This document shows, one piece after another, positions 2,753-30,040 of a DNA stretch of 64,000 bases (positions are counted from its first letter, which is position 1; every line of letters begins with the position of its first letter). The stretch spans positions 434,001-498,000 of the forward strand of contig NC_060200.1 of assembly GCF_020623625.1 (NCBI RefSeq). Reading direction: 5' to 3'. This stretch comes from Saccharomycodes ludwigii. Its lineage: Eukaryota; Ascomycota; Saccharomycetes; Saccharomycodales; Saccharomycodaceae. Position numbers and translations under genes: made by a program. The notes under the pieces were generated by a model. The model saw only the letters and a list, made by a program, of their open reading frames with translations. It was not told the origin of the DNA and did not search any database.

Positions 2753-5700
2753 TTAAACGAACATTAAGAAAACAGAAATTAAAATAGAGAAAATGGAAAT
2801 TGTCACTTTGACAGCAGCAGCTTCTTGAATTTGGACAGAAAAGGAAGTTGCTTGAGAAGCAATGGTAGTAGAACCTAGTTGTTGTTGACTAATAGGTAAT
2901 AATTCTGTGTTACTTACACTGTCTGTAATAGCTGAAGTTTTAATAACTGTAGACAACCCCGTTTGACCCCAGGTCTTTGTATGTACGACTGATGATTCAA
3001 TACTAGTAATTTCAGAACCCGCTGAAATGACAATAGTAGAGACAATGGGAGATGATGTGACTTGCTGAGTGGTTTCACAAATTTCAATGGTACCGTCTAA
3101 CTTGGTACCACATTTGGTAATAGTTGTAGAAAAAAAAGAGTAAGATTGACTGGTAACAGTGACTTCCTGTTGAGCAATAGTTATTAAAGTACTATAAAAA
3201 ATACTATAATCAGTTGACTCTTTGGCAACTGTGGATGTACTTAGGAGCACATTGGTTGTAGTGATTGGAACATTAGTCTCTGTAGTGATTGTATAGGTAA
3301 ATGGAGACCCAGATGGGACAATTTGAGTAATGGTAGATATTGGGATAGACTGAGTAATAGTCACTGGACCACACACAGTAGAAGCCATGCCGTTAGATCC
3401 GGTAACTTGGTGATTAACTGAACAAGAAGTAACGGTTTCGATAGCAGTGGTGAATATACTTTGGGTAATTGTAACGTCTTCGGTGTATTCAGTTGTAGAT
3501 ACTAAACAAGTAGTAGTTAGACTGGTGTAAACAGAAGTGACAAAGGTGGTATAGACACTAGCGGAACTAGCTTCTTCCTTATTAATAGAAGCAGTAGCAT
3601 TAGGTGTAGTTACAATTACATTCGTAGTGGTTACTGGGACATTAGTCTCTGTGGTGATTGTATAAGTAACCGGAGACCCAGCTGGGACGACTTGAGTAGT
3701 GGTAGATACTGGGATAGACTGAGCAACAGTCTTTGGACCGCACACAGTAGAAGCCTCGCCGTTAGATCCGGTAACTTGGTGATTAACTGAACAAGAAGTA
3801 ACGGTTTCGATAGCAGTGGTGAATATACTTTGGGTAATTGTAATGTCTTCGGTGTATTCAGTTGTAGATACTAAACAAGTAGTAGTTAGACTGGTGTAAA
3901 CAGAAGTAACAGTGGTTAACTTTGCAGAAACGTAAGAAAATGGGGTACCTGGTCCACTAGAGTATGGAATAGAGGAGGATGCAGTACTTGGTTCACTAGA
4001 GTATGGAGTAGAAGAGGATGCACTACCTGGTCCACTAGAGTATGGAATGGAAGAAGATGCACTACCTGGTCCACTAGAGTATGGAATAGAGGAGGATGCA
4101 CTACCTGGTCCACTAGAATATGGAATAGAAGAAGATGCACTACCTGGTCCGCTAGAATATGGAATAGAGGAGGATGCACTACCTGGTCCACTAGAATATG
4201 GAATAGAAGAAGATGCAGTACCTGGTCCACTAGAGTATGGAATAGAGGAGGATGTAGTACCTGGTCCACTAGAATATGGAATAGAAGAAGATGCACTACC
4301 TGGTCCACTAGAGTATGGAGTAGAAGAGGATGCACTACCTGGTCCACTAGAGTATGGAATGGAAGAAGATGCACTACCTGGTCCACTAGAGTATGGAATA
4401 GAGGAGGATGCACTACCTGGTCCACTAGAGTATGGAATAGAAGAAGATGCAGTACCTGGTCCACTAGAGTATGGAATAGAGGAGGATGTAGTACCTGGTC
4501 CACTAGAGTATGGAGTAGAGGAGGATGTAGTACCTGGTCCACTAGAGTATGGAATGGAAGAAGATGCACTACCTGGTCCACTAGAGTATGGAATAGAAGA
4601 AGATGCAGTACCTGGTCCACTAGAGTATGGAATAGAGGAGGATGTAGTACCTGGTCCACTAGAGTATGGAGTAGAAGAGGATGTAGTACCTGGTCCACTA
4701 GAATGTGGAATGGAAGAAGTAGTGGATTTGCTTGATGATGAAAAACAGAAATTGTTACATTTCTTACTCCATTCGTATCCTGGAAAATCTGTTTGTGAAT
4801 TCCCATTATTATCAGCATTACATCCGGTCTGTAAATCAAAACTGCCGGGACCTTCAGGATTCGTACTGTAATCATACTGAATTTGGAAATCTGGCATTAC
4901 AGAAGTACAGTCGCTGTCTTTTGTATAGATTCTAAAACTAGCAGTCCAATCGGTAGGATCAGTAATTAGATAAATGTTCTCATTGTTGCTATATACCACA
5001 TATGTGGAACTATCTGGTGAATCCAAACCAATGATTTTTAACTCCCATAGATCGGCTATTGGAATCGACGTTTTGGCATAAACGTGGATAGTTATTTCAT
5101 AGATATTATCTTGTTCCCAAACCACATCTAGGATATCCATGTAATATCTTTCATAGCCAACTTGTTCACTATGCCAGTTAAAGTTGTAGTCTGGACAAAT
5201 AGGCGTGGCTGAACAACTTGGACCGGTAATTGTAGATGAGTAAGAGGATGAAGATGGTGTGCCTGATCCACTAGAGTATGGAATAGAAGAAGATGCACTA
5301 CCTGGTCCACTAGAATATGGAATAGAGGAGGATGCAGTACCTGGTCCACTAGAGTATGGAATAGAAGAGGATGCACTACCTGGTCCACTAGAATATGGAA
5401 TAGAGGAGGATGCAGTACCTGGTCCACTAGAGTATGGAATGGAAGAAGATGCACTACCTGGTCCACTAGAGTATGGAATAGAGGAGGATGCACTACCTGG
5501 TCCACTAGAATATGGAATAGAGGAGGATGCACTACCTGGTCCACTAGAGTATGGAGTAGAAGAGGATGCACTACCTGGTCCACTAGAATGTGGAATGGAA
5601 GAAGTAGTGGATTTGCTTGATGATGAAAAACAGAAATTGTTACATTCCTTACTCCATTCGTATCCTGGAAAATCTGTTTGTGAATTCCCATTATTATCAG

Positions 5701-8700
5701 CATTACATCCGGTCTGTAAATCAAAACTGCCGGGACCTTCAGGATTCGTACTGTAATCATACTGAATTTGGAAATCTGGCATTACAGAAGTACAGTCGCT
5801 GTCTTTTGTATAGATTCTAAAACTAGCAGTCCAATCGGTAGGATCAGTAATTAGATAAATGTTCTCATTGTTGCTATATACCACATATGTGGAACTATCT
5901 GGTGAATCCAAACCAATGATTTTTAACTCCCATAGATCGGCTATTGGAATCGACGTTTTGGCATAAACGTGGATAGTTATTTCATAGATATTATCTTGTT
6001 CCCAAACCACATCTAGGATATCCATGTAATATCTTTCATAGCCAACTTGTTCACTATGCCAGTTAAAGTTGTAGTCTGGACAAATAGGCGTGGCTGAACA
6101 ACTTGGACCGGTAATTGTAGATGAGTAAGAGGATGAAGATGGTGTGCCTGATCCACTAGAGTATGGAATAGAGGAGGATGCAGTACCTGGTCTACTAGAG
6201 TATGGAGTAGAGGAGGATGTAGTACCTGGTCCACTAGAGTATGGAATAGAAGAAGATGCACTACCTGGTCCACTAGAGTATGGAATAGAAGAAGATGCAC
6301 TACCTGGTCCACTAGAGTATGGAATAGAGGAGGATGCAGTACCTGGTCCACTAGAGTATGGAATAGAAGAAGATGCAGTACCTGGTCCACTAGAGTATGG
6401 AATAGAAGAGGATGCACTACCTGGTCCACTAGAATATGGAATAGAGGAGGATGCAGTACCTGGTCCACTAGAGTATGGAATAGAAGAAGATGCAGTACCT
6501 GGTCCACTAGAATATGGAATAGAAGAAGATGCACTACCTGGTCCACTAGAGTATGGAATAGAAGAAGATGCAGTATCTGGTCCACTAGAATATGGAATAG
6601 AGGAGGATGCACTACCTGGTCCACTAGAATATGGAGTAGAAGAGGATGCACTACCTGGTCCACTAGAATGTGGAATGGAAGAAGTAGTGGATTTGCTTGA
6701 TGATGAAAAACAGAAATTGTTACATTCCTTACTCCATTCGTATCCTGGAAAATCTGTTTGTGAATTCCCATTATTATCAGCATTACATCCGGTCTGTAAG
6801 TCAAAACTGCCGGGACCTTCAGGATTCGTACTGTAATCATACTGAATTTGGAAATCTGGCATTACAGAAGTACAGTCGCTGTCTTTTGTATAAATTCTAA
6901 AACTAGCAGTCCAATCGGTAGGATCAGTAATTAGATAAATGTTCTCATTGTTGCTATATACCACATATGTGGAACTATCTGGTGAATCCAAACCAATGAT
7001 TTTTAACTCCCATAGATCGGCTATTGGAATCGACGTTTTGGCATAAACGTGGATAGTTATTTCATAGATATTATCTTGTTCCCAAACCACATCTAGGATA
7101 TCCATGTAATATCTTTCATAGCCAACTTGTTCACTATGCCAGTTAAAGTTGTAGTCTGGACAAATAGGCGTGGCTGAACAACTTGGACCGGTAATTGTAG
7201 ATGAGTAAGAGGATGAAGATGGTGTGCCTGATCCACTAGAGTATGGAATAGAGGAGGATGCAGTACCTGGTCTACTAGAGTATGGAGTAGAGGAGGATGT
7301 AGTACCTGGTCCACTAGAGTATGGAATAGAAGAAGATGCACTACCTGGTCCACTAGAGTATGGAATAGAAGAAGATGCACTACCTGGTCCACTAGAGTAT
7401 GGAATAGAGGAGGATGCAGTACCTGGTCCACTAGAGTATGGAATAGAAGAAGATGCACTACCTGGTCCACTAGAGTATGGAATAGAAGAAGATGCACTAC
7501 CTGGTCCACTAGAGTATGGAATAGAGGAGGATGCAGTACCTGGTCCACTAGAGTATGGAATAGAAGAGGATGCAGTACCTGGTCCACTAGAGTATGGAAT
7601 AGAAGAAGATGCAGTACCTGGTCCACTAGAATATGGAATAGAAGAAGATGCAGTACCTGGTTCACTAGAGTATTGAATAGAGGAGGATGCAGTACCTGGT
7701 CCACTAGAGTATGGAATAGAAGAGGATGCAGTACCTGGTCCACTAGAGTATGGAATAGAGGAGGATGCACTACCTGGTCCACTAGAATATGGAATAGAGG
7801 AGGATGCACTACCTGGTCCACTAGAGTATGGAGTAGAAGAGGATGCACTACCTGGTCCACTAGAATGTGGAATGGAAGAAGTAGTGGATTTGCTTGATGA
7901 TGAAAAACAGAAATTGTTACATTCCTTACTCCATTCGTATCCTGGAAAATCTGTTTGTGAATTCCCATTATTATCAGCATTACATCCGGTCTGTAAATCA
8001 AAACTGCCGGGACCTTCAGGATTCGTACTGTAATCATACTGAATTTGGAAATCTGGCATTACAGAAGTACAGTCGCTGTCTTTTGTATAGATTCTAAAAC
8101 TAGCAGTCCAATCGGTAGGATCAGTAATTAGATAAATGTTCTCATTGTTGCTATATACCACATATGTGGAACTATCTGGTGAATCCAAACCAATGATTTT
8201 TAACTCCCATAGATCGGCTATTGGAATCGACGTTTTGGCATAAACGTGGATAGTTATTTCATAGATATTATCTTGTTCCCAAACCACATCTAGGATATCC
8301 ATGTAATATCTTTCATAGCCAACTTGTTCACTATGCCAGTTAAAGTTGTAGTCTGGACAAATAGGCGTGGCTGAACAACTTGGACCGGTAATTGTAGATG
8401 AGTAAGAGGATGAAGATGGTGTGCCTGATCCACTAGAGTATGGAATAGAGGAGGATGCACTACCTGGTCCACTAGAGTATGGAGTAGAAGAGGATGCACT
8501 ACCTGGTTCACTAGAGTATGGAATAGAGGAGGATGCACTACCTGGTCCACTAGAGTATGGAATAGAAGAAGATGCAGTACCTGGTCCACTAGAGTATGGA
8601 ATAGAAGAGGATGCACTACCTGGTCCACTAGAGTATGGAATAGAAGAGGATGCACTACCTGGTCCACTAGAATATGGAATAGAGGAGGATGCAGTACCTG

Positions 8701-9478
8701 GTCCACTAGAGTATGGAATGGAAGAAGATGCACTACCTGGTCCACTAGAGTATGGAATAGAGGAGGATGCAGTACCTGGTCCACTAGAATATGGAATAGA
8801 AGAAGATGCAGTACCTGGTCCACTAGAAATAGAAGGAGCATTTGATGAAGTAGATGCACTTACTTGTGAGGATACGCAGCTTTTACTACAGTCAACATTC
8901 CAAGATAAAACTGGAAAGTCACCTTGTGCATTATTTTGATTATCAGCATTACAGCTAACTTGTAAATCAAAACTAGTATCTCCATATGGCCATTTTTTAC
9001 ATAGTGCAGTGTCACTACAAACATCTTTACAATAATCCCATTGAATTTGAAAAGAACCGGAAGTAGCAGTAGAACCATCTACATCAGCATAAATTCTAAA
9101 AGTAGCTTCAAAGTCGGTTGGGCTATCAATATTAGCAACTTTCAAATTTCTATCATATAATTGAAAAGTAGAACCATCTGGGGAATTAACACCAATTATT
9201 TTAACAGAAAATAAATCATCTATGGAAATTTGTGTATCGGAATAAACTCTAATAGTTATCCAATAAATATTATCAGTTTCCCATTGGACATTTTGCAATT
9301 GCATATTGTATTTTGGGATACCAAGTTGGTTTCGGTGAAAATCAAAATTTAAGTCCGGACAAACTTGTGAACCCGAGCATGTGGCTTGAGTGCTGTGCCC
9401 AGATGGAACACAATTGTAAGCGTTAGTGACAACGGCCTGCGCCAACACAAAAGCTTTGGTCAAAGTCGAAATTTTCAT
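2753..9478 (-). CDS. FLO11: Giant FLO11-type cell-wall adhesin with five Flo11 domains (adhesin A)
   Basis: About 2241 residues from the ATG at 9478. A TTG 12 bases further upstream is in frame, but the ATG gives a clean signal peptide beginning MKISTLTKAFVLAQAV. An N-terminal Flo11 domain occupies residues ~20-208 (CPDLNFDFH, WITIRVY, SFDLQVSCNADN, DFPVLSWNVDC). Four more near-identical Flo11 domains lie at ~349-537, 749-936, 1109-1296 and 1404-1591 (CPDYNFNWH, YEITIHVY, DPTDWTASFRIY, DFPGYEWSK), separated by Ser/Gly/Pro-rich linkers made of a 13-residue unit. From ~1846 a Thr/Ser-rich region carries a duplicated segment (VTSVYTSLTTTCLVSTTEYT and TYTITTETNVP). The last ~18 residues are hydrophobic, as in a GPI signal. 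S. cerevisiae Flo11, a wall protein for cell-cell adhesion, biofilm and invasive growth, has a single such domain. No stop interrupts the frame. Confidence 0.92.
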   Translation of the reverse strand: MKISTLTKAFVLAQAVVTNAYNCVPSGHSTQATCSGSQVCPDLNFDFHRNQLGIPKYNMQLQNVQWETDNIYWITIRVYSDTQISIDDLFSVKIIGVNSPDGSTFQLYDRNLKVANIDSPTDFEATFRIYADVDGSTATSGSFQIQWDYCKDVCSDTALCKKWPYGDTSFDLQVSCNADNQNNAQGDFPVLSWNVDCSKSCVSSQVSASTSSNAPSISSGPGTASSSIPYSSGPGTASSSIPYSSGPGSASSSIPYSSGPGTASSSIPYSSGPGSASSSIPYSSGPGSASSSIPYSSGPGTASSSIPYSSGPGSASSSIPYSSEPGSASSSTPYSSGPGSASSSIPYSSGSGTPSSSSYSSTITGPSCSATPICPDYNFNWHSEQVGYERYYMDILDVVWEQDNIYEITIHVYAKTSIPIADLWELKIIGLDSPDSSTYVVYSNNENIYLITDPTDWTASFRIYTKDSDCTSVMPDFQIQYDYSTNPEGPGSFDLQTGCNADNNGNSQTDFPGYEWSKECNNFCFSSSSKSTTSSIPHSSGPGSASSSTPYSSGPGSASSSIPYSSGPGSASSSIPYSSGPGTASSSIPYSSGPGTASSSIQYSSEPGTASSSIPYSSGPGTASSSIPYSSGPGTASSSIPYSSGPGTASSSIPYSSGPGSASSSIPYSSGPGSASSSIPYSSGPGTASSSIPYSSGPGSASSSIPYSSGPGSASSSIPYSSGPGTTSSSTPYSSRPGTASSSIPYSSGSGTPSSSSYSSTITGPSCSATPICPDYNFNWHSEQVGYERYYMDILDVVWEQDNIYEITIHVYAKTSIPIADLWELKIIGLDSPDSSTYVVYSNNENIYLITDPTDWTASFRIYTKDSDCTSVMPDFQIQYDYSTNPEGPGSFDLQTGCNADNNGNSQTDFPGYEWSKECNNFCFSSSSKSTTSSIPHSSGPGSASSSTPYSSGPGSASSSIPYSSGPDTASSSIPYSSGPGSASSSIPYSSGPGTASSSIPYSSGPGTASSSIPYSSGPGSASSSIPYSSGPGTASSSIPYSSGPGTASSSIPYSSGPGSASSSIPYSSGPGSASSSIPYSSGPGTTSSSTPYSSRPGTASSSIPYSSGSGTPSSSSYSSTITGPSCSATPICPDYNFNWHSEQVGYERYYMDILDVVWEQDNIYEITIHVYAKTSIPIADLWELKIIGLDSPDSSTYVVYSNNENIYLITDPTDWTASFRIYTKDSDCTSVMPDFQIQYDYSTNPEGPGSFDLQTGCNADNNGNSQTDFPGYEWSKECNNFCFSSSSKSTTSSIPHSSGPGSASSSTPYSSGPGSASSSIPYSSGPGSASSSIPYSSGPGSASSSIPYSSGPGTASSSIPYSSGPGSASSSIPYSSGPGTASSSIPYSSGPGSASSSIPYSSGSGTPSSSSYSSTITGPSCSATPICPDYNFNWHSEQVGYERYYMDILDVVWEQDNIYEITIHVYAKTSIPIADLWELKIIGLDSPDSSTYVVYSNNENIYLITDPTDWTASFRIYTKDSDCTSVMPDFQIQYDYSTNPEGPGSFDLQTGCNADNNGNSQTDFPGYEWSKKCNNFCFSSSSKSTTSSIPHSSGPGTTSSSTPYSSGPGTTSSSIPYSSGPGTASSSIPYSSGPGSASSSIPYSSGPGTTSSSTPYSSGPGTTSSSIPYSSGPGTASSSIPYSSGPGSASSSIPYSSGPGSASSSIPYSSGPGSASSSTPYSSGPGSASSSIPYSSGPGTTSSSIPYSSGPGTASSSIPYSSGPGSASSSIPYSSGPGSASSSIPYSSGPGSASSSIPYSSGPGSASSSIPYSSGPGSASSSTPYSSEPSTASSSIPYSSGPGTPFSYVSAKLTTVTSVYTSLTTTCLVSTTEYTEDITITQSIFTTAIETVTSCSVNHQVTGSNGEASTVCGPKTVAQSIPVSTTTQVVPAGSPVTYTITTETNVPVTTTNVIVTTPNATASINKEEASSASVYTTFVTSVYTSLTTTCLVSTTEYTEDVTITQSIFTTAIETVTSCSVNHQVTGSNGMASTVCGPVTITQSIPISTITQIVPSGSPFTYTITTETNVPITTTNVLLSTSTVAKESTDYSIFYSTLITIAQQEVTVTSQSYSFFSTTITKCGTKLDGTIEICETTQQVTSSPIVSTIVISAGSEITSIESSVVHTKTWGQTGLSTVIKTSAITDSVSNTELLPISQQQLGSTTIASQATSFSVQIQEAAAVKVTISIFSILISVFLMFV
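4706..5270 (-). repeat. Flo11 module, C-terminal-most copy
   Basis: A 565-bp unit containing a full Flo11 domain. By eye it differs from the 5591 copy at one base near 4762, which changes Glu to Lys before the CNNFC segment. Confidence 0.93.
5591..6155 (-). repeat. Flo11 module, second copy from the C-terminus
   Basis: A 565-bp unit that I could not distinguish from the copy at 7868 on reading. It serves here as the reference for the other copies. Confidence 0.93.
6671..7235 (-). repeat. Flo11 module, third copy from the C-terminus
   Basis: A 565-bp unit with two differences from the 5591 copy that I can see, near 6800 (taag for taaa) and 6893 (ataa for atag). Both are silent in the adhesin frame. 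Confidence 0.93.
7868..8432 (-). repeat. Flo11 module, fourth copy (next to the N-terminal domain)
   Basis: A 565-bp unit read as identical to the 5591 copy. It follows the diverged N-terminal Flo11 domain (about 8855-9420), which is clearly a different and older domain type. Confidence 0.93.
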
Positions 9479-12611: not shown

Positions 12612-14120
12612 ATGACAATGACACACAACGAGAGCTTAATAGTAAAGTTAATTATAAAGATTACAACCATATTAAATGAATCTATTTACTTTGAACCTCA
12701 TTTAATACACAAGAATAATGATGACACTGATAGCAATATTACAAGTGTCAAGTATATTTTTCCTATCATGATTTCTGATCAACTTAAAATAAATGGAGGC
12801 TGTTTACCATTAGAAGTTTATAAAATATATGAAAAAACATGCCACGTAAGTACTAATACTACTGTTGATAAAATGGTGTATGTAAATAGAGAAATAAGTA
12901 TCTTTGAGTTTAAAAGATTGGTTTATGTGTTATCATTTTGTTACCAAATAGTTTACGACTGTATGTTGTACTATGATATTCCTACGAAAAAACACCAAAT
13001 ATTTCAAAAAAAATTTTATCATCAATATTTATCATTGAGTGAAAATAGGTTTTCCATCATCTTTAAAAATTTTGTTGGCATAACCTTTAAAGAATATAAT
13101 TTCTACGTTTTTAAATTCATAAAGAAAAATTATGAGATTCTAAAACCTTTTATTTCTGCCATGCAAAATAATGATTATGATGCCTCTATTGATCTAAATA
13201 GCAATTTTGTCATGATCGAGTATATAAAATGGAAAGGTTTAGCTCGTGAGTTATTAGTAGAATGGTCTAATAGTAACAAAATTAGCTCTAGTTCTAACAT
13301 TTCTACTACCTACAATACAACAAATAAAATTATTATGTTACCCTTTACTTATACTCTAACCAATTCTACAAATTTATATCACAATAATTGTAAACAAAAT
13401 ACACCAATTAGAAAAAAGATATTGATTAATAGAATACCTGATTTAAAACAAATTAGTGATAATACAACATATATCAATAAATTGTTGGTTCACTTTGAAA
13501 AATGCAATATTAACGAGGATATGGGTTTGGCATATAATTTTTTTAAAGCAGAAATAGGTCAATTTGATGTCACTACAAATCTAACGGCGTCGTGTTATAC
13601 AAATACCACTTATAATGATTATTTTGGCATTAATAATGCCCTGATTTCAAAAGATAAGGAGGAAAAAGATCATAATACTGTTAACTACGCTGATGGTGAA
13701 CATATTTTAACCAATTTTCAATTGGGTTATAGAGACTTTTGTAATTTCAACGGGGCTCCCCGCCTGCTGAAACACACGTATTTGGCTAATGACCATTTTA
13801 TGCATAATTATTGCCGTGAAAATATGAATGACACCTGTGCTCTATCTAATATTCCTGGTATCGTTATTATTGATAGACTTAATATTGATTCTAATACTGA
13901 CACAAACACAATCGGGGGAAAAACTACGTTAATTAATAAAGTCAAAAAAAAAGGAAATGCCGGCATTCCACGTATAACATCCTCTTCGATACGTAAATTA
14001 CCTGATCTTATATACAAAAACACTATTGAAGGTACTTTAAAATTAGACGATGATAAAAAAAGAGAGGGGGGGGGGGAAATGCACACAATAGTCAAGATTT
14101 TGATGAACACTACAGTTTAA
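12612..14120 (+). CDS. Unknown protein, paralogue 1 (possible diverged Pho80/Pcl-like cyclin)
   Basis: 502 residues in the longest frame; a second ATG follows two codons later. I do not recognise the family with confidence. It is clearly paralogous to the gene at 17573: both share FEPHL near residue 27, GCLPLEVY near 63, LSFCYQI near 107, LSENRFS near 142, FVGITF-EY-FY near 153-165, NSTNLYHNNCKQNT, and NFQL-YRDFCNFN. The order ISIFEF (95-100), VGITFKEYN (154-162), FIKKNYEIL (169-177) is faintly like the PNISIFNYF, VGGVRCHELN and FLKRVNYRI segments of the Pho80 cyclin box, but about 15 residues between them are missing, so this is a weak inference. The C-terminal part is Asn/Asp-rich. The frame leaves coding-like sequence at a run of eleven G (14066-14076), and its last ~15 codons look spurious. 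Confidence 0.6.
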   Translation: MTMTHNESLIVKLIIKITTILNESIYFEPHLIHKNNDDTDSNITSVKYIFPIMISDQLKINGGCLPLEVYKIYEKTCHVSTNTTVDKMVYVNREISIFEFKRLVYVLSFCYQIVYDCMLYYDIPTKKHQIFQKKFYHQYLSLSENRFSIIFKNFVGITFKEYNFYVFKFIKKNYEILKPFISAMQNNDYDASIDLNSNFVMIEYIKWKGLARELLVEWSNSNKISSSSNISTTYNTTNKIIMLPFTYTLTNSTNLYHNNCKQNTPIRKKILINRIPDLKQISDNTTYINKLLVHFEKCNINEDMGLAYNFFKAEIGQFDVTTNLTASCYTNTTYNDYFGINNALISKDKEEKDHNTVNYADGEHILTNFQLGYRDFCNFNGAPRLLKHTYLANDHFMHNYCRENMNDTCALSNIPGIVIIDRLNIDSNTDTNTIGGKTTLINKVKKKGNAGIPRITSSSIRKLPDLIYKNTIEGTLKLDDDKKREGGGEMHTIVKILMNTTV

Positions 14121-14681
14121 ATGGCAATGCCTTATACGGACCTGCTAATAAATTCAATACTGATGAATACGATACTTCTGTTACCTTCCTTTCCAGCAAG
14201 AATGATGAAAAAGAAGCTGGAAGGAGCAATGATGATAGTCATTATGTCTATTCAAGTGTCAAAAATGATAATAGCAGCATTAATAACAAAAATACTGATA
14301 AATCCTGTTATTATCATGATAATGATAGTTTTACAAGTTCTGAAAGTTCATTTCGTATCATCCGATGATTTCATGGTGATTTGGATCATTTTTATCAGCA
14401 GCCTAAACATTGAATATAATGACCAGAAACTTCTAAATAGTGAGTGTAACAGCATTGCTGTAATCTCTACAGCTACATATATTCATATTCTCCCTAACTT
14501 AAAGGGGGGAGAAAGCCGACAACTTGCCATATCCCGGCTGAAATTATATGTAACCCCTAAGAATAAACCGCAGGTCTCCTTTGAACAAAAAAATTCGGGT
14601 GTATGCTTTAAATTTGCTGCTAAGGGCAAATTGAATACATTTATGGGAAACATAAAGAAAAAGCCAAGTAAAAAGATGTAA
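14066..14681 (+). pseudogene. Coding-like 3' continuation of paralogue 1, out of frame
   Basis: Just after the G11 run, the frame one base back reads as a hydrophilic Asn/Ser/Asp-rich chain (for example DEHYSLNGNALYGPANKF) to a TGA at 14366-14368, then stays coding-like to a second TGA at 14411-14413. After that, the original frame again looks coding, with a basic end (SGVCFKFAAKGKLNTF, then KKPSKKM) to a stop at 14679-14681. This suggests a gene once about 690 codons long whose 3' third now has at least two breaks. An alternative for the first break is an error in the G-run length. The frame starting with the ATG at 14121 is, in its first ~80 codons, the wrong frame of this tail. Confidence 0.45.
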
Positions 14682-17572: not shown

Positions 17573-18724
17573 ATGACCGAGGAAAATAACGTTACAAATC
17601 TTATAATAGAATTAACTTATCTATTAAATCATTCTATTCATTTTGAACCACATTTATTATACAAAAATACTAAAAATGATTATAAGGATTATGATAGTAA
17701 TAGTGGGTATATTTTACCTGTCATGGTCTCTGATAAAATAAAAATATATAGTGGTTGTTTGCCACTAGAAGTTTATAATACTTATGAAAAAATTATACAT
17801 AATGTGGATGATAGCACAGTTGATAAAAGGAACATATACATGAATAGAGAATTAAGCAATTATGAGTATAAAAAATTGGTGCGTGTCTTATCGTTTTGTT
17901 ATCAAATACTATACGAATGTATATTATCATTTAATAATAATAACAACAATAAGAAAAGAATATTTGAGAAAAATTTTTTTCACAATCATATGTTATTAAG
18001 TGAAAATCGGTTTTCTTTGGTCTTCAAAACTTTTGTCGGCATAACTTTTAGGGAATACGATTTCTATTGCTTAGAGTTTATTAAAAAGAATTATGGTTTT
18101 CTTAAAGTTGCCATTTCGTTTATTCAACGAGACAGTCTTACTGGATATATAAAAGATTATACAGTGTGGAATGAAATAGCTACTAATTTGTTACGAAATT
18201 GGTCTAAAGTCAAATTGGATACTTATGCTGCCAAAAATGCTTCAACATTTTTCACTTATACATTGGCCAATTCAACTAACTTATATCACAACAATTGCAA
18301 ACAAAATACAACAATGAGAAGGAAAATATTGATTGATAGGATACCTAATTTGGCTCGAGGAGATGATAGAAATAATAACTCTTCTTATTTTAAAATCCTA
18401 GAAATGTCGGATGGATTTTCAGATAATAAAAGTTTTCCAACATCTAACCCATCAGAAATATGTGGATACATTAGTTCACGTGATTCTTTTCAAACTGTTA
18501 CCAATATTAATAATCAATCTTCTAAGAATTTCAATATTCCAGATTTTAATGAAAATACTGAGGCTAATACTATTTCTAATAGCAATAATATATTCAAACA
18601 ACGAGCAAATGATAAAAGAGGTTTTCTAAATAATTTTCAATTAGCTTATAGGGATTTTTGTAATTTTAACGATAGAGAAGACGATGTTGATTATGATTAT
18701 TCACCAATATTTTTTTCCACATAA
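17573..18724 (+). CDS. Unknown protein, paralogue 2 (possible diverged Pho80/Pcl-like cyclin)
   Basis: 383 residues, aligning almost without gaps over its first ~180 residues with the 12612 gene, then again at YTLANSTNLYHNNC and at NFQLAYRDFCNFN. The shared N-terminal half is hydrophobic-patterned and probably a helical fold; the remainder is Asn/Asp/Ser-rich and variable. Selection seems to have kept the same blocks in both copies, so at least one was functional recently. The same weak cyclin-box resemblance applies (VGITFREYD at 154-162, FIKKNYGFL at 169-177). The protein stops soon after the last shared block, at a run of seven T (18710-18716). Sequence beyond the stop looks coding in another frame, so the true end is uncertain. 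It lies 4 kb upstream of adhesin B on the same strand. Confidence 0.6.
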   Translation: MTEENNVTNLIIELTYLLNHSIHFEPHLLYKNTKNDYKDYDSNSGYILPVMVSDKIKIYSGCLPLEVYNTYEKIIHNVDDSTVDKRNIYMNRELSNYEYKKLVRVLSFCYQILYECILSFNNNNNNKKRIFEKNFFHNHMLLSENRFSLVFKTFVGITFREYDFYCLEFIKKNYGFLKVAISFIQRDSLTGYIKDYTVWNEIATNLLRNWSKVKLDTYAAKNASTFFTYTLANSTNLYHNNCKQNTTMRRKILIDRIPNLARGDDRNNNSSYFKILEMSDGFSDNKSFPTSNPSEICGYISSRDSFQTVTNINNQSSKNFNIPDFNENTEANTISNSNNIFKQRANDKRGFLNNFQLAYRDFCNFNDREDDVDYDYSPIFFST

Positions 18725-22744: not shown

Positions 22745-25700
22745 ATGAGAACACAGTTGTATTTCATAATCTTTTTAACCTTTTTTACTGTTGTCATTGG
22801 CGCTTATAGTTATGTTCCGTCCGGACACACCGCACAGTCGTCATGCTCGGGTTCACAAGTTTGTCCGGACTTAAATTTTGATTTTCACCGAAACCAACTT
22901 GGGATACCGAAATATAATATGCAACTGCAAAATGTCCAATGGGAAACTGATAATATTTATTGGATAACTATTAGAGTTTATTCCGATACACAAATTTCCA
23001 TAGACAATTTATTTTCCGCTTCGATAATTGGTGTTAATTCCCCAGATGGGTCTACCTTTGAATTATATGATAGAAATTTGAAAGTTGCTAATATTGATAA
23101 CCCAACCGACTTTGAAGCTACTTTTAGAATTTATGCTGATGTAGATGGTTGTACTGCTACTTCCGGTTCTTTTCAAATCCACTGGGGCTACTGTCAAGGT
23201 GTTTGCAGTGACACTGCACTATGCAAAAGTTGGCCATACGGTAATACTAACTTTGAGTTGCAAGTTAGCTGTAATGCTGATAATCAAAATAATGCACAAG
23301 GCGACTTTCCAGTTTTATCTTGGAATGTTGACTGTGCTGGAAGTTATACGTCTTCCAAAACAACTTCTACTCTTACACCTACTTCCACCACTTCAAGTAC
23401 TTCCACCACTTCAAGTACTTCCACCACTTCAAGTACTTCCACCACTTCAAGTACTTCCACCACTTCAAGTACTTCCACCACTTCAAGTACTTCTACCACT
23501 TCAAGTACTTCTACCACTTCCACTACTTCCACTACTTCCACCACTTCTCAAACTACCGAAGCTACTGCTAATATTGCAAGTTGTTTGGCCACGCCCATTT
23601 GTCCAGACTACAACTTTAACTGGCATAGTGAACAAGTTGGTTATGAAAGATATTACATGGATATCCTAGATGTGGTTTGGGAACAAGATAATATCTATGA
23701 AATAACTATCCATGTTTATGCTGAAACGTCGATTCCAATAGCCGATCTATGGGAGTTAAAGGTTACTGGATTGGATTCACCAGATGGTTCCACATATGTG
23801 GTATATAGCCACAATGAGAACATTTATCTAATTACTGATCCTACCGATTGGACTGCTAGTTTTAGAATTTATACAGAAGATAGTGACTCTACTTCTGTAA
23901 TGCCAAATTTCCAAATTCAATATGACTACAGTACGGATCCTGAAGGTCCCGGCAGTTTTGACTTACAGACCGGATGTAATGCTGATAATAATGGGAATTC
24001 ACAAACAGATTTTCCAGGATACGAATGGAGTAAAGAATGTAGTGAGAATGAAGCTAGTTCCTCTAGTTCCTCTGGTTCCTCTGGTTCCTCTGGTTCTTCT
24101 AGCTCCTCTAGTTCCTCCACTTTCTCCAAATCTTTTGTTAGTACATTTACTTCTGCAATATCCTCAGCTCCTTCCAATAGCATACCAAGCTCCTCGTACA
24201 CTGTATTAGCTTATACTAGCACATCAAACACATCTGAATCGTTTGTTTACCCAAGCAGTTCTTCTGCATCGAGTGATATTATAATGAGCAGCACATATAG
24301 TTCTATTGTCGATCCATTAACCTCATCTGGATCAAGTTATTTGAATCCATCAGCAACAACTGATCAAGGTAGTGCATTTACAACTATATCTATTTCCAGT
24401 ATGGTATCTAGTCAAACCTACACTTCTGATACACCAATCACATCTGAATCGTTTGTTTACCCAAGCAGTTCTTCTGCATCGAGTGATGTTATAATGAGCA
24501 GCACATATAGTTCTATTGTCGATCCATTAACCTCATCTGGATCAAGTTATTTGAATCCATCAGCAACAACTGATCAAGGTAGTGCATTTACAACTATATC
24601 TATTTCCAGTATGGTATCTAGTCAAACCTACACTTCTGATACACCAATCACATCTGAATCGTTTGTTTACCCAAGCAGTTCTTCTGCATCGAGTGATGTT
24701 ATAATGAGTAGCACATATAGTTCTATTGTTGATCCACCAACATCATCTGTGTTGAGTTACTCTAGTACACCAATCAGTTCTTCTGCATCGAGTGATGTTA
24801 TAATGAGCAGCACATATAGTTCTATCGTCGATCCATTAACCTCATCTGGATCAAGTTACTTGAATCCATCAGCAACAACTGATCAAGGTAGTGCATTTAC
24901 AACTATATCTATTTCCAGTACTGTATCTAGTCAATCCTACACTTTTAGTACACGAATCAAATCTGAATCGTTTGTTTACCCAAGCAGTTCTTCTGTATCT
25001 AGTGATGTTATAATGAGTAGCACATATAGTTCTATTGTTGATTTACCAACATCGTCTGTGTTGAGTTACTCTAATACACCAATCACATCTGAATCGTTTG
25101 TTTACCCAAGCAGTTCTTCTGCATCGAGTGATGTTATAATGAGCAGCACATATAGTTCTATTGTCGATCCATTAACCTCATCTGGATCAAATTACTTGAA
25201 TCCATCAGCAACAACTGATCAAGGTAGTGCATTTACAACTATATCTATTTCCAGTACTGTATCTAGTCAAACCTACACTTCTGATACACCAATCACATCT
25301 GAATCGTTTGTTTACCCAAGCAGTTCTTCTGCATCGAGTGATGTTATAATGAGCAGCACATATAGTTCTATTGTCGATCCATTAACCTCATCTGGATCAA
25401 GTTATTTGAATCCATCAGCAACAACTGATCAAGGTAGTGCATTTACAACTATATCTATTTCCAGTATGGTATCTAGTCAAACCTACACTTCTGATACACC
25501 AATCACATCTGAATCGTTTGTTTACCCAAGCAGTTCTTCTGCATCGAGTGATGTTATAATAAGTAGCACATATAGTTCTATTGTTGATCCACCAACATCG
25601 TCTGTGTTGAGTTACTCTAGTACACCAATCAGTTCTTCTGTATCGAGTGATGTTATAATGAGCAGCACATATAGTTCTATTGTCGATCCATTAACCTCAT

Positions 25701-28700
25701 CTGGATCAAGTTATTTGAATCCATCAGCAACAACTGATCAAGGTAGTGCATTTACAACTATATCTATTTCCAGTATGGTATCTAGTCAAACCTACACTTC
25801 TGATACACCAATCACATCTGAATCGTTTGTTTACCCAAGCAGTTCTTCTGCATCGAGTGATATTATAATGAGTAGCACATATGGTTCTGTTGTCGATCCA
25901 TTAACCTCATCTGGATCAGGTTACTTGAATCCATCAGCAACAACTGATCAAGGTAGTGCATTTACAACTATATCTATTTCCAGTACTGTATCTAGTCAAA
26001 CCTACACTTCTGATACACCAATCACATCTGAATCGTTTGTTTACCCAAGCAGTTCTTCTGCATCGAGTGATGTTATAATAAGTAGCACATATAGTTCTAT
26101 TGTTGATCCACCAACATCGTCTGTGTTGAGTTACTCTAGTACACCAATCAGTTCTTCTGTATCGAGTGATGTTATAATGAGCAGCACATATAGTTCTATT
26201 GTCGATCCATTAACCTCATCTGGATCAAGTTATTTGAATCCATCAGCAACAACTGATCAAGGTAGTGCATTTACAACTATATCTATTTCCAGTATGGTAT
26301 CTAGTCAAACCTACACTTCTGATACACCAATCACATCTGAATCGTTTGTTTACCCAAGCAGTTCTTCTGCATCGAGTGATGTTATAATGAGCAGCACATA
26401 TAGTTCTATTGTCGATCCATTAACCTCATCTGGATCAAGTTATTTGAATCCATCAGCAACAACTGATCAAGGTAGTGCATTTACAACTATATCTATTTCC
26501 AGTATGGTATCTAGTCAAACCTACACTTCTGATACACCAATCACATCTGAATCGTTTGTTTACCCAAGCAGTTCTTCTGCATCGAGTGATGTTATAATGA
26601 GCAGCACATATAGTTCTATTGTCGATCCATTAACCTCATCTGGATCAAGTTATTTGAATCCATCAGCAACAACTGATCAAGGTAGTGCATTTACAACTAT
26701 ATCTATTTCCAGTACTGTATCTAGTCAATCCTACACTTTTAGTACACGAATCAAATCTGAATCGTTTGTTTACCCAAGCAGTTCTTCTGTATCTAGTGAT
26801 ATTATAATGAGTAGCACATATAGTTCTATTGTTGATCCACCAACATCATCTGTGTTGAGTTACTCTAGTACACCAATCAGTTCTTCTGCATCGAGTGATG
26901 TTATAATGAGCAGCACATATAGTTCTGTTGTCGATCCATTAACCTCATCTGGATCAAGTTACTTGAATCCATCAGCAACAACTGATCAAGGTAGTGCATT
27001 TACAACTATATCTATTTCCAGTATGGTATCTAGTCAAACCTACACTTCTGATACACCAATCACATCTGAATCATTTGTTTACCCAAGCAGTTCTTCTGCA
27101 TCGAGTGATGTTATAATGAGTAGCACATATAGTTCTGTTGTCGATCCATTAACCTCATCTGGATCAAGTTACTTGAATCCATCAGCAACAACTGATCAAG
27201 GTAGTGCATTTACAACTATATCTATTTCCAGTACTGTATCTAGTCAAACCTACACTTCTGATACACCAATCACATCTGAATCGTTTGTTTACCCAAGCAG
27301 TTCTTCTGCATCGAGTGATGTTATAATAAGTAGCACATATAGTTCTATTGTTGATCCACCAACATCATCTGTGTTGAGTTACTCTAGTACACCAATCAGT
27401 TCTTCTGCATCGAGTGATGTTATAATGAGCAGCACATATAGTTCTATTGTCGATCCATTAACCTCATCTGTGTTGAGTTACTCTAATACACCAAGCACAT
27501 CTGAATCATTTGTTTACCCAAGCAGTTCTTCTGCATCGAGTGATGTTATAATGAGTAGCACATATAGTTCTATTGTTGATCCACCAACATCATCTGTGTT
27601 GAGTTACTCTAGTACACCAATCAGTTCTTCTGCATCGAGTGATGTTATAATGAGCAGCACATATAGTTCTATTGTCGATCCATTAACCTCATCTGTGTTG
27701 AGTTACTCTAATACACCAAGCACATCTGAATCATTTGTTTACCCAAGCAGTTCTTCTGCATCGAGTGATGTTATAATGAGTAGCACATATAGTTCTATTG
27801 TTGATCCACCAACATCATCTGTGTTGAGTTACTCTAGTACACCAATCAGTTCTTCTGCATCGAGTGATGTTATAATGAGCAGCACATATAGTTCTATTGT
27901 CGATCCATTAACCTCATCTGGATCAAATTACTTGAATCCATCAGCAACAACTGATCAAGGTAGTGCATTTACAACTATATCTATTTCCAGTATGGTATCT
28001 AGTCAATCCTACACTTTTAGTACACGAATCAAATCTGAATCATTTGTTTATTGGAGTAATTCTTCTGTATCTAGTGATGTTATAATGAGCAGCACATATA
28101 GTTCTATTGTCGATCCATTAACCTCATCTGGATCAAGTTATTTGAATCCATCAGCAACAACTGATCAAGGTAGTGCATTTACAACTATATCTATTTCCAG
28201 TATGGTATCTAGTCAAACCTACACTTCTGATACACCAATCACATCTGAATCGTTTGTTTACCCAAGCAGTTCTTCTGTATCTAGTGATATTATAATGAGT
28301 AGCACATATAGTTCTATTGTTGATCCACCAACATCGTCTGTGTTGAGTTACTCTAGTACACCAATCAGTTCTTCTGTATCGAGTGATGTTATAATGAGCA
28401 GCACATATAGTTCTATTGTCGATCCATTAACCTCATCTGGATCAAGTTATTTGAATCCATCAGCAACAACTGATCAAGGTAGTGCATTTACAACTATATC
28501 TATTTCCAGTATGGTATCTAGTCAAACCTACACTTCTGATACACCAATCACATCTGAATCGTTTGTTTACCCAAGCAGTTCTCCTGCATCGAGTGATGTT
28601 ATAATGAGCAGCACATATAGTTCTGTTGTCGATCCATTAACCTCATCTGTGTTGAGTTACTCTAATACACCAAGCACATCTGAATCATTTGTTTACCCAA

Positions 28701-30040
28701 GCAGTTCTTCTGCATCGAGTGATGTTATAATGAGTAGCACATATAGTTCTATTGTTGATTTACCAACATCGTCTGTGTTGAGTTACTCTAGTACACCAAT
28801 CAGTTCTTCTGTATCTAGTGATGTTATAATGAGCAGCACATATAGTTCTATTGTCGATCCATTAACCTCATCTGGATCAAGTTATTTGAATCCATCAGCA
28901 ACAACTGATCAAGGTAGTGCATTTACAACTATATCTATTTCCAGTATGGTATCTAGTCAAACCTACACTTCTGATACACCAATCACATCTGAATCGTTTG
29001 TTTACCCAAGCAGTTCTTCTGCATCGAGTGATGTTATAATGAGCAGCACATATAGTTCTGTTGTCGATCCATTAACCTCATCTGTGTTGAGTTACTCTAA
29101 TACACCAATCAGTTCTTCTGCATCGAGTGATATTATAATGAGCAGCACATATAGTTCTGTTGTCGATCCATTAACCTCATCTGGATCAAGTTACTTGAAT
29201 CCATCAGCAACAACTGATCAAGGTAGTGCATTTACAACTATATCTATTTCCAGTACATTACCTAATCAATCCTATTTTACCAGTATGGAAACAGCTTCTA
29301 CTTTTGTTCATGTATCATATTCGGAATCAATATATTTTGATAGACATTCATCATCTATTTATTTGAAACCCTCATCTTCTTTGGACAAGATTTCCACTGT
29401 AACTTCTATTATTGTTTCTAAACCATCCAATGTTGATACTTCTGTTATTAATTCAAGTGCTTCTGTTACATCGGATAGAATTTCTTTTGTCTCTGCTTCT
29501 AATATTGAGAATATCAAGACTAATTCTAGATCTAGCTCGGATGCTACTGTTTCAGCTGTTGCTTATCTTTCTTCTATTGTTACAACTCCTGTCATCCATC
29601 AATCTCTAGCTACTGCTACTGAAAATGAAATACCGGTTACTAAATATTTTTATTCTTCTTTTAGTGCCAGTTTTACTACATGCAATGTTATTGAAGGTAC
29701 CTTTACAATGTGCGAGGTTTCACAACACGCTACATCCATCCCAACCGCAACGAGTGTAGTGGTGCTTCCATTCACTGATAGTAACATTGCTACAAAATCC
29801 ACAATTGTTAGCGGTAACAACGCAAATGCTCAACAAAACACCACTCTAGTTACGAAGAGATCAACAAGTTCTACTATTGTAATTACTCCCACTACTTCTG
29901 TTTCTAGTTTTACTGGGAGCGCGTATTCCAAGACAGCTACTGCCACAAACGTTTCAGTTCAGATTCAAGAAGCTTCTGCTAATAAGAAAAACGCCTCAAT
30001 TTTATCTGTGTTGTTATCTGCTATTATATTATTTATTTAA
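22745..30040 (+). CDS. FLO11: Giant FLO11-type cell-wall adhesin with two Flo11 domains and long repeats (adhesin B)
   Basis: 2431 residues, uninterrupted. A signal peptide (MRTQLYFIIFLTFFTVV, cleavage around residue 20) precedes a Flo11 domain at ~21-199 (CPDLNFDFH, WITIRVY, SCNADN, DFPVLSWNVDC). Then come a Ser/Thr linker of short repeats (~200-275), a second Flo11 domain at ~277-432 (CPDYNFNWH, YEITIHVY, DPTDWTASFRIY, DFPGYEWSK), a Ser-rich patch, and a ~1680-residue stalk of 70-residue repeats (~496-2173). The final 250 residues end in a basic dipeptide region and a hydrophobic tail (SILSVLLSAIILFI) typical of a GPI signal, with a small-residue stretch before it. The second Flo11 domain is about 94% identical in DNA to the modules of adhesin A, and the N-terminal domains also pair. 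The two genes are therefore relatives in inverted orientation whose stalks have been replaced by unrelated repeats. Expected role: homotypic adhesion at the cell wall. Confidence 0.92.
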   Translation: MRTQLYFIIFLTFFTVVIGAYSYVPSGHTAQSSCSGSQVCPDLNFDFHRNQLGIPKYNMQLQNVQWETDNIYWITIRVYSDTQISIDNLFSASIIGVNSPDGSTFELYDRNLKVANIDNPTDFEATFRIYADVDGCTATSGSFQIHWGYCQGVCSDTALCKSWPYGNTNFELQVSCNADNQNNAQGDFPVLSWNVDCAGSYTSSKTTSTLTPTSTTSSTSTTSSTSTTSSTSTTSSTSTTSSTSTTSSTSTTSSTSTTSTTSTTSTTSQTTEATANIASCLATPICPDYNFNWHSEQVGYERYYMDILDVVWEQDNIYEITIHVYAETSIPIADLWELKVTGLDSPDGSTYVVYSHNENIYLITDPTDWTASFRIYTEDSDSTSVMPNFQIQYDYSTDPEGPGSFDLQTGCNADNNGNSQTDFPGYEWSKECSENEASSSSSSGSSGSSGSSSSSSSSTFSKSFVSTFTSAISSAPSNSIPSSSYTVLAYTSTSNTSESFVYPSSSSASSDIIMSSTYSSIVDPLTSSGSSYLNPSATTDQGSAFTTISISSMVSSQTYTSDTPITSESFVYPSSSSASSDVIMSSTYSSIVDPLTSSGSSYLNPSATTDQGSAFTTISISSMVSSQTYTSDTPITSESFVYPSSSSASSDVIMSSTYSSIVDPPTSSVLSYSSTPISSSASSDVIMSSTYSSIVDPLTSSGSSYLNPSATTDQGSAFTTISISSTVSSQSYTFSTRIKSESFVYPSSSSVSSDVIMSSTYSSIVDLPTSSVLSYSNTPITSESFVYPSSSSASSDVIMSSTYSSIVDPLTSSGSNYLNPSATTDQGSAFTTISISSTVSSQTYTSDTPITSESFVYPSSSSASSDVIMSSTYSSIVDPLTSSGSSYLNPSATTDQGSAFTTISISSMVSSQTYTSDTPITSESFVYPSSSSASSDVIISSTYSSIVDPPTSSVLSYSSTPISSSVSSDVIMSSTYSSIVDPLTSSGSSYLNPSATTDQGSAFTTISISSMVSSQTYTSDTPITSESFVYPSSSSASSDIIMSSTYGSVVDPLTSSGSGYLNPSATTDQGSAFTTISISSTVSSQTYTSDTPITSESFVYPSSSSASSDVIISSTYSSIVDPPTSSVLSYSSTPISSSVSSDVIMSSTYSSIVDPLTSSGSSYLNPSATTDQGSAFTTISISSMVSSQTYTSDTPITSESFVYPSSSSASSDVIMSSTYSSIVDPLTSSGSSYLNPSATTDQGSAFTTISISSMVSSQTYTSDTPITSESFVYPSSSSASSDVIMSSTYSSIVDPLTSSGSSYLNPSATTDQGSAFTTISISSTVSSQSYTFSTRIKSESFVYPSSSSVSSDIIMSSTYSSIVDPPTSSVLSYSSTPISSSASSDVIMSSTYSSVVDPLTSSGSSYLNPSATTDQGSAFTTISISSMVSSQTYTSDTPITSESFVYPSSSSASSDVIMSSTYSSVVDPLTSSGSSYLNPSATTDQGSAFTTISISSTVSSQTYTSDTPITSESFVYPSSSSASSDVIISSTYSSIVDPPTSSVLSYSSTPISSSASSDVIMSSTYSSIVDPLTSSVLSYSNTPSTSESFVYPSSSSASSDVIMSSTYSSIVDPPTSSVLSYSSTPISSSASSDVIMSSTYSSIVDPLTSSVLSYSNTPSTSESFVYPSSSSASSDVIMSSTYSSIVDPPTSSVLSYSSTPISSSASSDVIMSSTYSSIVDPLTSSGSNYLNPSATTDQGSAFTTISISSMVSSQSYTFSTRIKSESFVYWSNSSVSSDVIMSSTYSSIVDPLTSSGSSYLNPSATTDQGSAFTTISISSMVSSQTYTSDTPITSESFVYPSSSSVSSDIIMSSTYSSIVDPPTSSVLSYSSTPISSSVSSDVIMSSTYSSIVDPLTSSGSSYLNPSATTDQGSAFTTISISSMVSSQTYTSDTPITSESFVYPSSSPASSDVIMSSTYSSVVDPLTSSVLSYSNTPSTSESFVYPSSSSASSDVIMSSTYSSIVDLPTSSVLSYSSTPISSSVSSDVIMSSTYSSIVDPLTSSGSSYLNPSATTDQGSAFTTISISSMVSSQTYTSDTPITSESFVYPSSSSASSDVIMSSTYSSVVDPLTSSVLSYSNTPISSSASSDIIMSSTYSSVVDPLTSSGSSYLNPSATTDQGSAFTTISISSTLPNQSYFTSMETASTFVHVSYSESIYFDRHSSSIYLKPSSSLDKISTVTSIIVSKPSNVDTSVINSSASVTSDRISFVSASNIENIKTNSRSSSDATVSAVAYLSSIVTTPVIHQSLATATENEIPVTKYFYSSFSASFTTCNVIEGTFTMCEVSQHATSIPTATSVVVLPFTDSNIATKSTIVSGNNANAQQNTTLVTKRSTSSTIVITPTTSVSSFTGSAYSKTATATNVSVQIQEASANKKNASILSVLLSAIILFI
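23384..23545 (+). repeat. 18-bp Ser/Thr minisatellite in adhesin B
   Basis: About eight copies of an 18-bp unit (ACTTCCACCACTTCAAGT type), encoding TSTTSS, followed by degenerate ACTTCCACT copies. It forms the spacer between the two Flo11 domains. In adhesin A that place is taken by the unrelated 39-bp repeat. Confidence 0.9.
24232..29262 (+). repeat. 210-bp repeat array (adhesin B stalk)
   Basis: Full units are 210 bp (70 residues), for example with TCTGAATC ending at 24240, 24450 and 24660. Each contains ESFVYPSSSSASSDVIMSS, SIVDPLTSSGSSYLNPS and TTDQGSAFTTISISS. Shorter variants replace the second part with PPTSSVLSYSSTPI. Long and short units alternate in higher-order blocks (near-identical runs at about 27440-27600 and 27620-27800). 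Copies differ by only a few bases, indicating recent unequal exchange. Confidence 0.95.

Follow-up and report, generated by a model that had tools for sequence, protein, structure and literature searches.

In Saccharomyces cerevisiae, Flo11 (4UYR; PF10182) combines a single Flo11 domain in N-terminal position with a Ser/Thr-rich stalk and a C-terminal anchor region. Homotypic adhesion has been shown for the Flo11A domains of several yeasts, bands of aromatic residues being important for it; twelve aromatics are relevant in ScFlo11A, and a combined mutant bore changes at Y111, Y113 and Y118 (band I) as well as Y133, W144 and Y196 (band II) (PMC7156268). An acid-pH dependence of Flo11 adhesion has also been described (PMC6308950). 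Regarding chains with more than one such domain, Table 3 of PMC8621652 gives six for Candida intermedia (A0A1L0BS11), three for Clavispora lusitaniae (C4XZ24) and two for Cyberlindnera fabianii (A0A1V2L8G6), the other examples listed there having one, and the same article expects multiple Flo11 domains to raise the strength of interaction. Double or triple copies are likewise mentioned for Kluyveromyces lactis and Cl. lusitaniae, among others (PMC6308950), and a tree legend in PMC7156268 distinguishes a first, a second and a third domain. By published description, these proteins resemble the gene presented below in having several Flo11 domains per chain, those of C. intermedia and Cl. lusitaniae additionally carrying flocculin type 3 repeats. 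A sequence-only reading of the present locus had proposed a different design of cell-cell glue, a claim that cannot be upheld, as both the architecture and the idea of multivalency are already in print and no new class is thus involved. What the locus adds is a series within one genome (A, A+B, A+4B and free B, as defined below) together with very young, near-identical beads, which suits the questions of whether Flo11 domains are additive and whether the valency of an adhesin evolves by minisatellite recombination.

In the wine-spoilage yeast Saccharomycodes ludwigii, a member of the Saccharomycodaceae, the DNA under consideration is a stretch of 64,000 nucleotides, hereafter the window, and the gene of interest is a single reading frame, open from ATG to stop, of 2241 aa and lying exactly at 2753-9478 on the reverse strand. 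The genome of S. ludwigii UTAD17 was reported to encode several flocculins unique to this species among those compared (PMC7903802), the name Flo11 being absent from the main text of that article, and no description of the 2753-9478 gene was found in searches of the literature for Flo11 in Saccharomycodes or S. ludwigii. From the N-terminus, the domain order is A, then B1, B2, B3 and B4 (A+4B), and the features, all on the reverse strand, are as follows.

9416..9478, -, putative signal peptide region, residues 1-21 (hydrophobic N-terminus by hydropathy)
8873..9415, -, Flo11 domain of type A, residues 22-202 (PF10182 147.8 bits; 4uyr, E 1.6e-37)
8378..8872, -, Ser-Gly-Pro linker L0, eleven 13-aa units
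7904..8377, -, Flo11 domain B1, residues 368-525 (PF10182 158.2 bits; 4uys, E 1.6e-40; AlphaFold2 pLDDT 68.6)
7181..7903, -, linker L1, seventeen 13-aa units
6707..7180, -, Flo11 domain B2, residues 767-924 (PF10182 158.2 bits; two synonymous differences from B1)
6101..6706, -, linker L2, fourteen 13-aa units
5627..6100, -, Flo11 domain B3, residues 1127-1284 (PF10182 158.2 bits; equal to B1 over 474 bp)
5216..5626, -, linker L3, nine 13-aa units
4742..5215, -, Flo11 domain B4, residues 1422-1579 (PF10182 158.2 bits; one base, E to K, from B1)
3929..4741, -, linker L4, nineteen 13-aa units
2753..3928, -, C-terminal part, rich in Thr and containing two long repeats, a hydrophobic GPI-type tail and the stop (blastn homology to the C-terminus of the L009 paralogue; hydropathy)

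Five separate stretches of the protein match PF10182 (whole-protein E 1.4e-219), and in the search of the whole genome (12,500,424 bases in eight contigs; cut-off 25 bits) each of them covers profile positions 2-151 of 151, at 147.8 bits for the N-terminal domain A and 158.2 bits for every one of the four inner B domains; none of 14 control genomes gave a PF10182 match. In phmmer searches of the PDB, for which B1 was the only inner domain used as query, both A and B1 retrieved S. cerevisiae Flo11 (4uyr and 4uys, respectively). With five Flo11 domains above the curated cut-off, where one suffices for a Flo11-type adhesin as defined in PMC8621652 and two per chain for a multi-Flo11-domain adhesin, the protein belongs to both groups, and an outermost A followed by four near-identical B domains along the stalk is as good as certain. 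The initial proposal of a Flo11-type adhesin with five domains per chain, spaced as beads by Ser-Gly-Pro linkers, is thereby borne out, the family profile recognising the inner domains too. Its description of one diverged N-terminal domain followed by four complete ones is confirmed but needs rewording on some points: there are indeed five domains, all complete by Pfam, and the near-identity of the inner four goes unmentioned in it; by raw identity B is closer to ScFlo11A than A is (49% vs. 44%), and the inner domains are shorter at one loop, by nine residues relative to ScFlo11A and by eleven relative to domain A. A and B are 43-48% identical at the protein level. A match to DUF3805 in the same protein was dismissed as chance (22.3 bits against a cut-off of 22, no single stretch passing, and overlap with a Flo11 domain).

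Between the domains, the repeat unit is 13 aa or 39 bp long, with common forms SSGPG[ST]ASSSIPY, and linkers L0 to L4 hold 11, 17, 14, 9 and 19 units when the modified final unit that precedes each B is counted as well, or 10, 16, 13, 8 and 19 by a stricter pattern. Ser plus Thr make up 50-52% of the linkers and 38% of the C-terminal part, that is a repeated Ser/Thr-rich stalk, and hydropathy, the one basis used here, indicates a hydrophobic N-terminal leader as well as a hydrophobic C-terminal tail. The favoured reading is that of a putatively GPI-anchored Flo11-type cell-wall adhesin whose Ser/Thr/Pro-rich stalk is presumably O-mannosylated. A count of Val/Ile-rich hexamers, made with amyloid-prone stretches in mind, picked out residues 2049 and 2145-2148 of the C-terminal part, but the domains and the tail yielded such hexamers too, and the count was set aside as too crude.

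With B copies that are 99.3-100% identical, the extra modules could in principle have been multiplied by the assembler. Such an artefact is hardly credible given that the assembly, which is that of S. ludwigii NBRC 1722, was built from about 200x PacBio reads with a mean length of 13,041 bp and polished with Illumina data (PMC8567612). Such reads would be expected to cross the whole gene, which is 6.7 kb long and contains no exact direct repeat of more than 728 bp; besides, each linker has its own length and order of units.

The genome holds nine Flo11 domains in four genes, namely the A+4B gene, a gene with A+B, one with A alone and one with a B-type domain alone. The three relatives are listed below.

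22745..30040 of the window, +, sister adhesin, A+B, 2431 aa, with long Ser-rich repeats (PF10182 in two stretches, E 2.7e-82)
L009 4677-8924, paralogue of 1415 aa, with a single A domain and a stalk of short repeats
L010 4128-4778, secreted-looking protein of 216 aa, in which a hydrophobic leader and a short stretch rich in Ser precede a single Flo11 domain of B type

The sister adhesin lies about 13 kb from the A+4B gene in opposite orientation, and its domains are 91.7% (A) and 94.7-95.4% (B) identical to those of the latter in DNA. The L009 paralogue shares with the A+4B gene an A domain (79% DNA identity), a related short-repeat stalk and the same C-terminal repeats, but it is without B and thus of the ordinary one-domain form. 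The L010 protein has one B-type domain in common with the A+4B gene (67-69% protein identity), from which it differs in being 216 aa long and devoid of a stalk or visible anchor; reading on past its stop for ~820 bp in all three forward frames revealed no recognisable stalk or anchor. A poly-T tract follows soon after this stop codon, on account of which L010 is possibly a truncated former adhesin. A common promoter of the four paralogues was sought by comparing the 2 kb upstream of each and abandoned, one 33-bp match only being obtained.

Within the A+4B gene, the B domains differ pairwise at 0-3 of 474 bases, which amounts to three changes in all, two synonymous in B2 and one E to K in B4. 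Synonymous divergence (dS) is 0-0.024 among the four B and 0.14-0.17 between these and the sister-gene B; as for A, it is 0.25 between the two window domains, from which the third A, in L009, is separated by 0.89-1.09. Going by dS, the separation of the two window genes would be older than the origin, or the latest homogenisation, of the four B copies. L1 and L2 end in six units with the same DNA sequence, and L1 and L3 open with three identical units; more generally, blocks at the edges next to B are common to several linkers, whereas the linker middles differ in length and in unit order, a pattern expected of exchange between minisatellite arrays flanking B. The sister gene, with its single B, gives blastn matches to the A+4B gene in the A and B domains only and not in the minisatellite. 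The near-identical B copies are recent or kept alike, probably through the flanking 39-bp minisatellite, and the arrangement of the repeats makes recombination of B by this minisatellite likely. In mechanistic terms, B sits between two arrays of one and the same 39-bp minisatellite, unequal exchange between these arrays would duplicate "B plus linker" as a cassette, and bead number would then be expected to vary between strains.

Such a mode of multiplication also feeds a more modest account, in which the additional B domains would be by-products of minisatellite recombination, serving at most as low-cost lengthening of the stalk while the outermost domain alone adheres. Linker and bead number do look freely recombining, the three changes in all leave the B copies too young to show selection among themselves, and S. 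cerevisiae Flo11 has a single Flo11 domain (PMC8621652, Table 3). On the other hand, the frame has stayed open through four copies with domain residues unchanged save the one E to K, a separate B-type gene persists elsewhere in the genome, and dN/dS, calculated by dividing dN by dS, is 0.15-0.18 for B of the A+4B gene against the sister-gene B and 0.22 for A in the same pair of genes, from which both domain types look constrained. By-products are a rather unlikely explanation, if the strongest of the competing ones.

The relationship between A and B leads to another alternative. A small tree was built from nine rows, of which three were A, four B-type and the remaining two ScFlo11A and KpFlo11A, with B1 and B4 only as the B copies of the A+4B gene. 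In it, A and B form separate groups with supports of 100/100 and 83/82, and ScFlo11A stands beside A (82/90) although its raw identity is higher to B; the deeper order is unsure because of two long single branches. A heads the chain in all three genes that have it, and the alignment shows A and B to differ at aromatic positions 118, 126, 166 and 168 as well as in one loop. Rather than five equal self-binders, the chain might accordingly exhibit a division of labour, A and B recognising different things (trans vs. cis partners, or a foreign surface). The separate tree groups, the 43-48% identity between the two types, the four aromatic positions with the loop and the leading place of A all speak for it, but divergence in sequence is in itself no proof of different ligands, and this possibility is considered unlikely, more so than that of by-products.

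Regarding the self-binding potential of the beads, the aromatic comparison covers six of the twelve relevant ScFlo11A aromatics, that is the positions of the combined mutant. By alignment, B is aromatic at three of these six (Sc 111, 118 and 133), which are the very positions kept by the self-adhesive K. pastoris domain (three of six), and A at two (111 and 133); within band II, 133 is the sole aromatic position of the three in A and in B alike. Unlike ScFlo11A, with its one domain against five here, B is without nine loop residues including Y162, and Asn and Glu take the places of W166 and W168, so that aromatics 162, 166 and 168 are missing; no mention of Y162, W166 or W168 was found in the main text of PMC7156268. 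All nine Flo11 domains of the four genes have a pI of 4.05-4.21, in keeping with the described acid-pH dependence and compatible with self-binding at acid pH, of which it is no proof. AlphaFold2, run on a six-row input in both cases, gave for B a moderate, strand-rich best model out of five with a mean pLDDT of 68.6 and a pTM of 0.65 (the others at 42.4-54.2), and for A a poor model (pLDDT 45.7). Assignment of the fold expected of a Flo11-type adhesin, which is fibronectin-III-like with apical and neck subdomains, therefore rests on sequence, through the strong matches to solved Flo11 structures.

By extension from the work on ScFlo11, each B bead would dock at acid pH on like beads through aromatic surface residues, the partners being beads of a neighbouring cell (trans) or of a neighbouring stalk (cis), and four beads per chain would confer a higher avidity for identical partners. 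Multivalent self-binding of the beads is, by this analogy, plausible, the three aromatic positions kept by B speaking for it and the two kept by A, the single aromatic position in band II and the residues missing from B against it; whether it would also be their main role is an even call. The explanation as a whole, namely an A+4B adhesin whose B domain was duplicated as a cassette and whose self-docking beads raise avidity, is moderately favoured. A bolder extension would see the B array as a dial of self-recognition, in which strains of a species reported to be without meiotic crossing over (PMC8567612) would carry different bead numbers and sort by avidity, and the secreted single B would cap or bridge beads. 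Copy number would change readily in such a system, each bead being a minisatellite-flanked cassette; this extension is nevertheless quite improbable, below the division of labour between A and B.

The wider adhesin repertoire bears on how far the Flo11-type genes contribute to cell-cell adhesion. Profile searches of the genome gave at least 24 matches above cut-off to GLEYA, the lectin-type flocculin domain, whereas one of the 14 control genomes had a match, below cut-off. A contig end is no more than 70 kb away for 18 of the 20 GLEYA matches on contigs of known length, as against none of the four Flo11 genes. Three of the GLEYA matches contain an in-frame TAA. A title from 1992 in the reference list of PMC7903802 reports lectin-mediated flocculation in S. 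ludwigii and, together with the GLEYA matches, suggests that the principal cell-cell glue may lie elsewhere than in the Flo11-type genes, whose part may be less in flocculation than in adhesion to surfaces or in biofilms.

Two reading frames between the adhesin genes of the window belong to an unnamed family found at eight places in the genome, in 12 matched pieces.

Window 12612-14120, +, family member
Window 17573-18724, +, family member
L020 3874-5001, +, family member
L021 6661-8538, -, family member
L022 2929-4806, +, family member
L023 2822-4633, +, family member
L027 493-2265, +, family member
L025 3317-5371, -, family member

At seven of the eight places, a Flo11 or GLEYA domain is no more than 12 kb away, such stretches representing about 4.9% of the genome; a naive binomial gives 5e-9 for this proximity, a value not to be trusted as several of the places are clustered near chromosome ends, two are neighbours in the window, and L021 and L022 resemble copies of each other. 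Four places are over 100 kb away from any contig end: three of these, including the two in the window, have an adhesin nearby, and the other, C5:1276603, lies 116 kb from the nearest one. On the same strand and 2.7-4.0 kb upstream of an adhesin ORF stand the family genes at window 17573 (upstream of the sister adhesin), L020, L021 and L022, and at L023/L026 the distance is about 8.7 kb, again on the same strand; at C2:78028, the nearest GLEYA match is 9.3 kb off, on the opposite side and strand. Profiles of AraC-type helix-turn-helix domains match weakly, below Pfam cut-offs, in three of the five members scanned (best E 0.0036), the other two giving unrelated weak Pfam matches; with E values of up to 5 admitted, the two window members match no Pfam family, and a search of the PDB with a profile built from seven members gave nothing. 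That the family comprises DNA-binding regulators linked to adhesin genes is a guess. A further ORF of 186 aa at 14121-14681 (+) starts directly after the stop of the 12612 gene and in the same frame; it could be a remnant or have arisen by chance.
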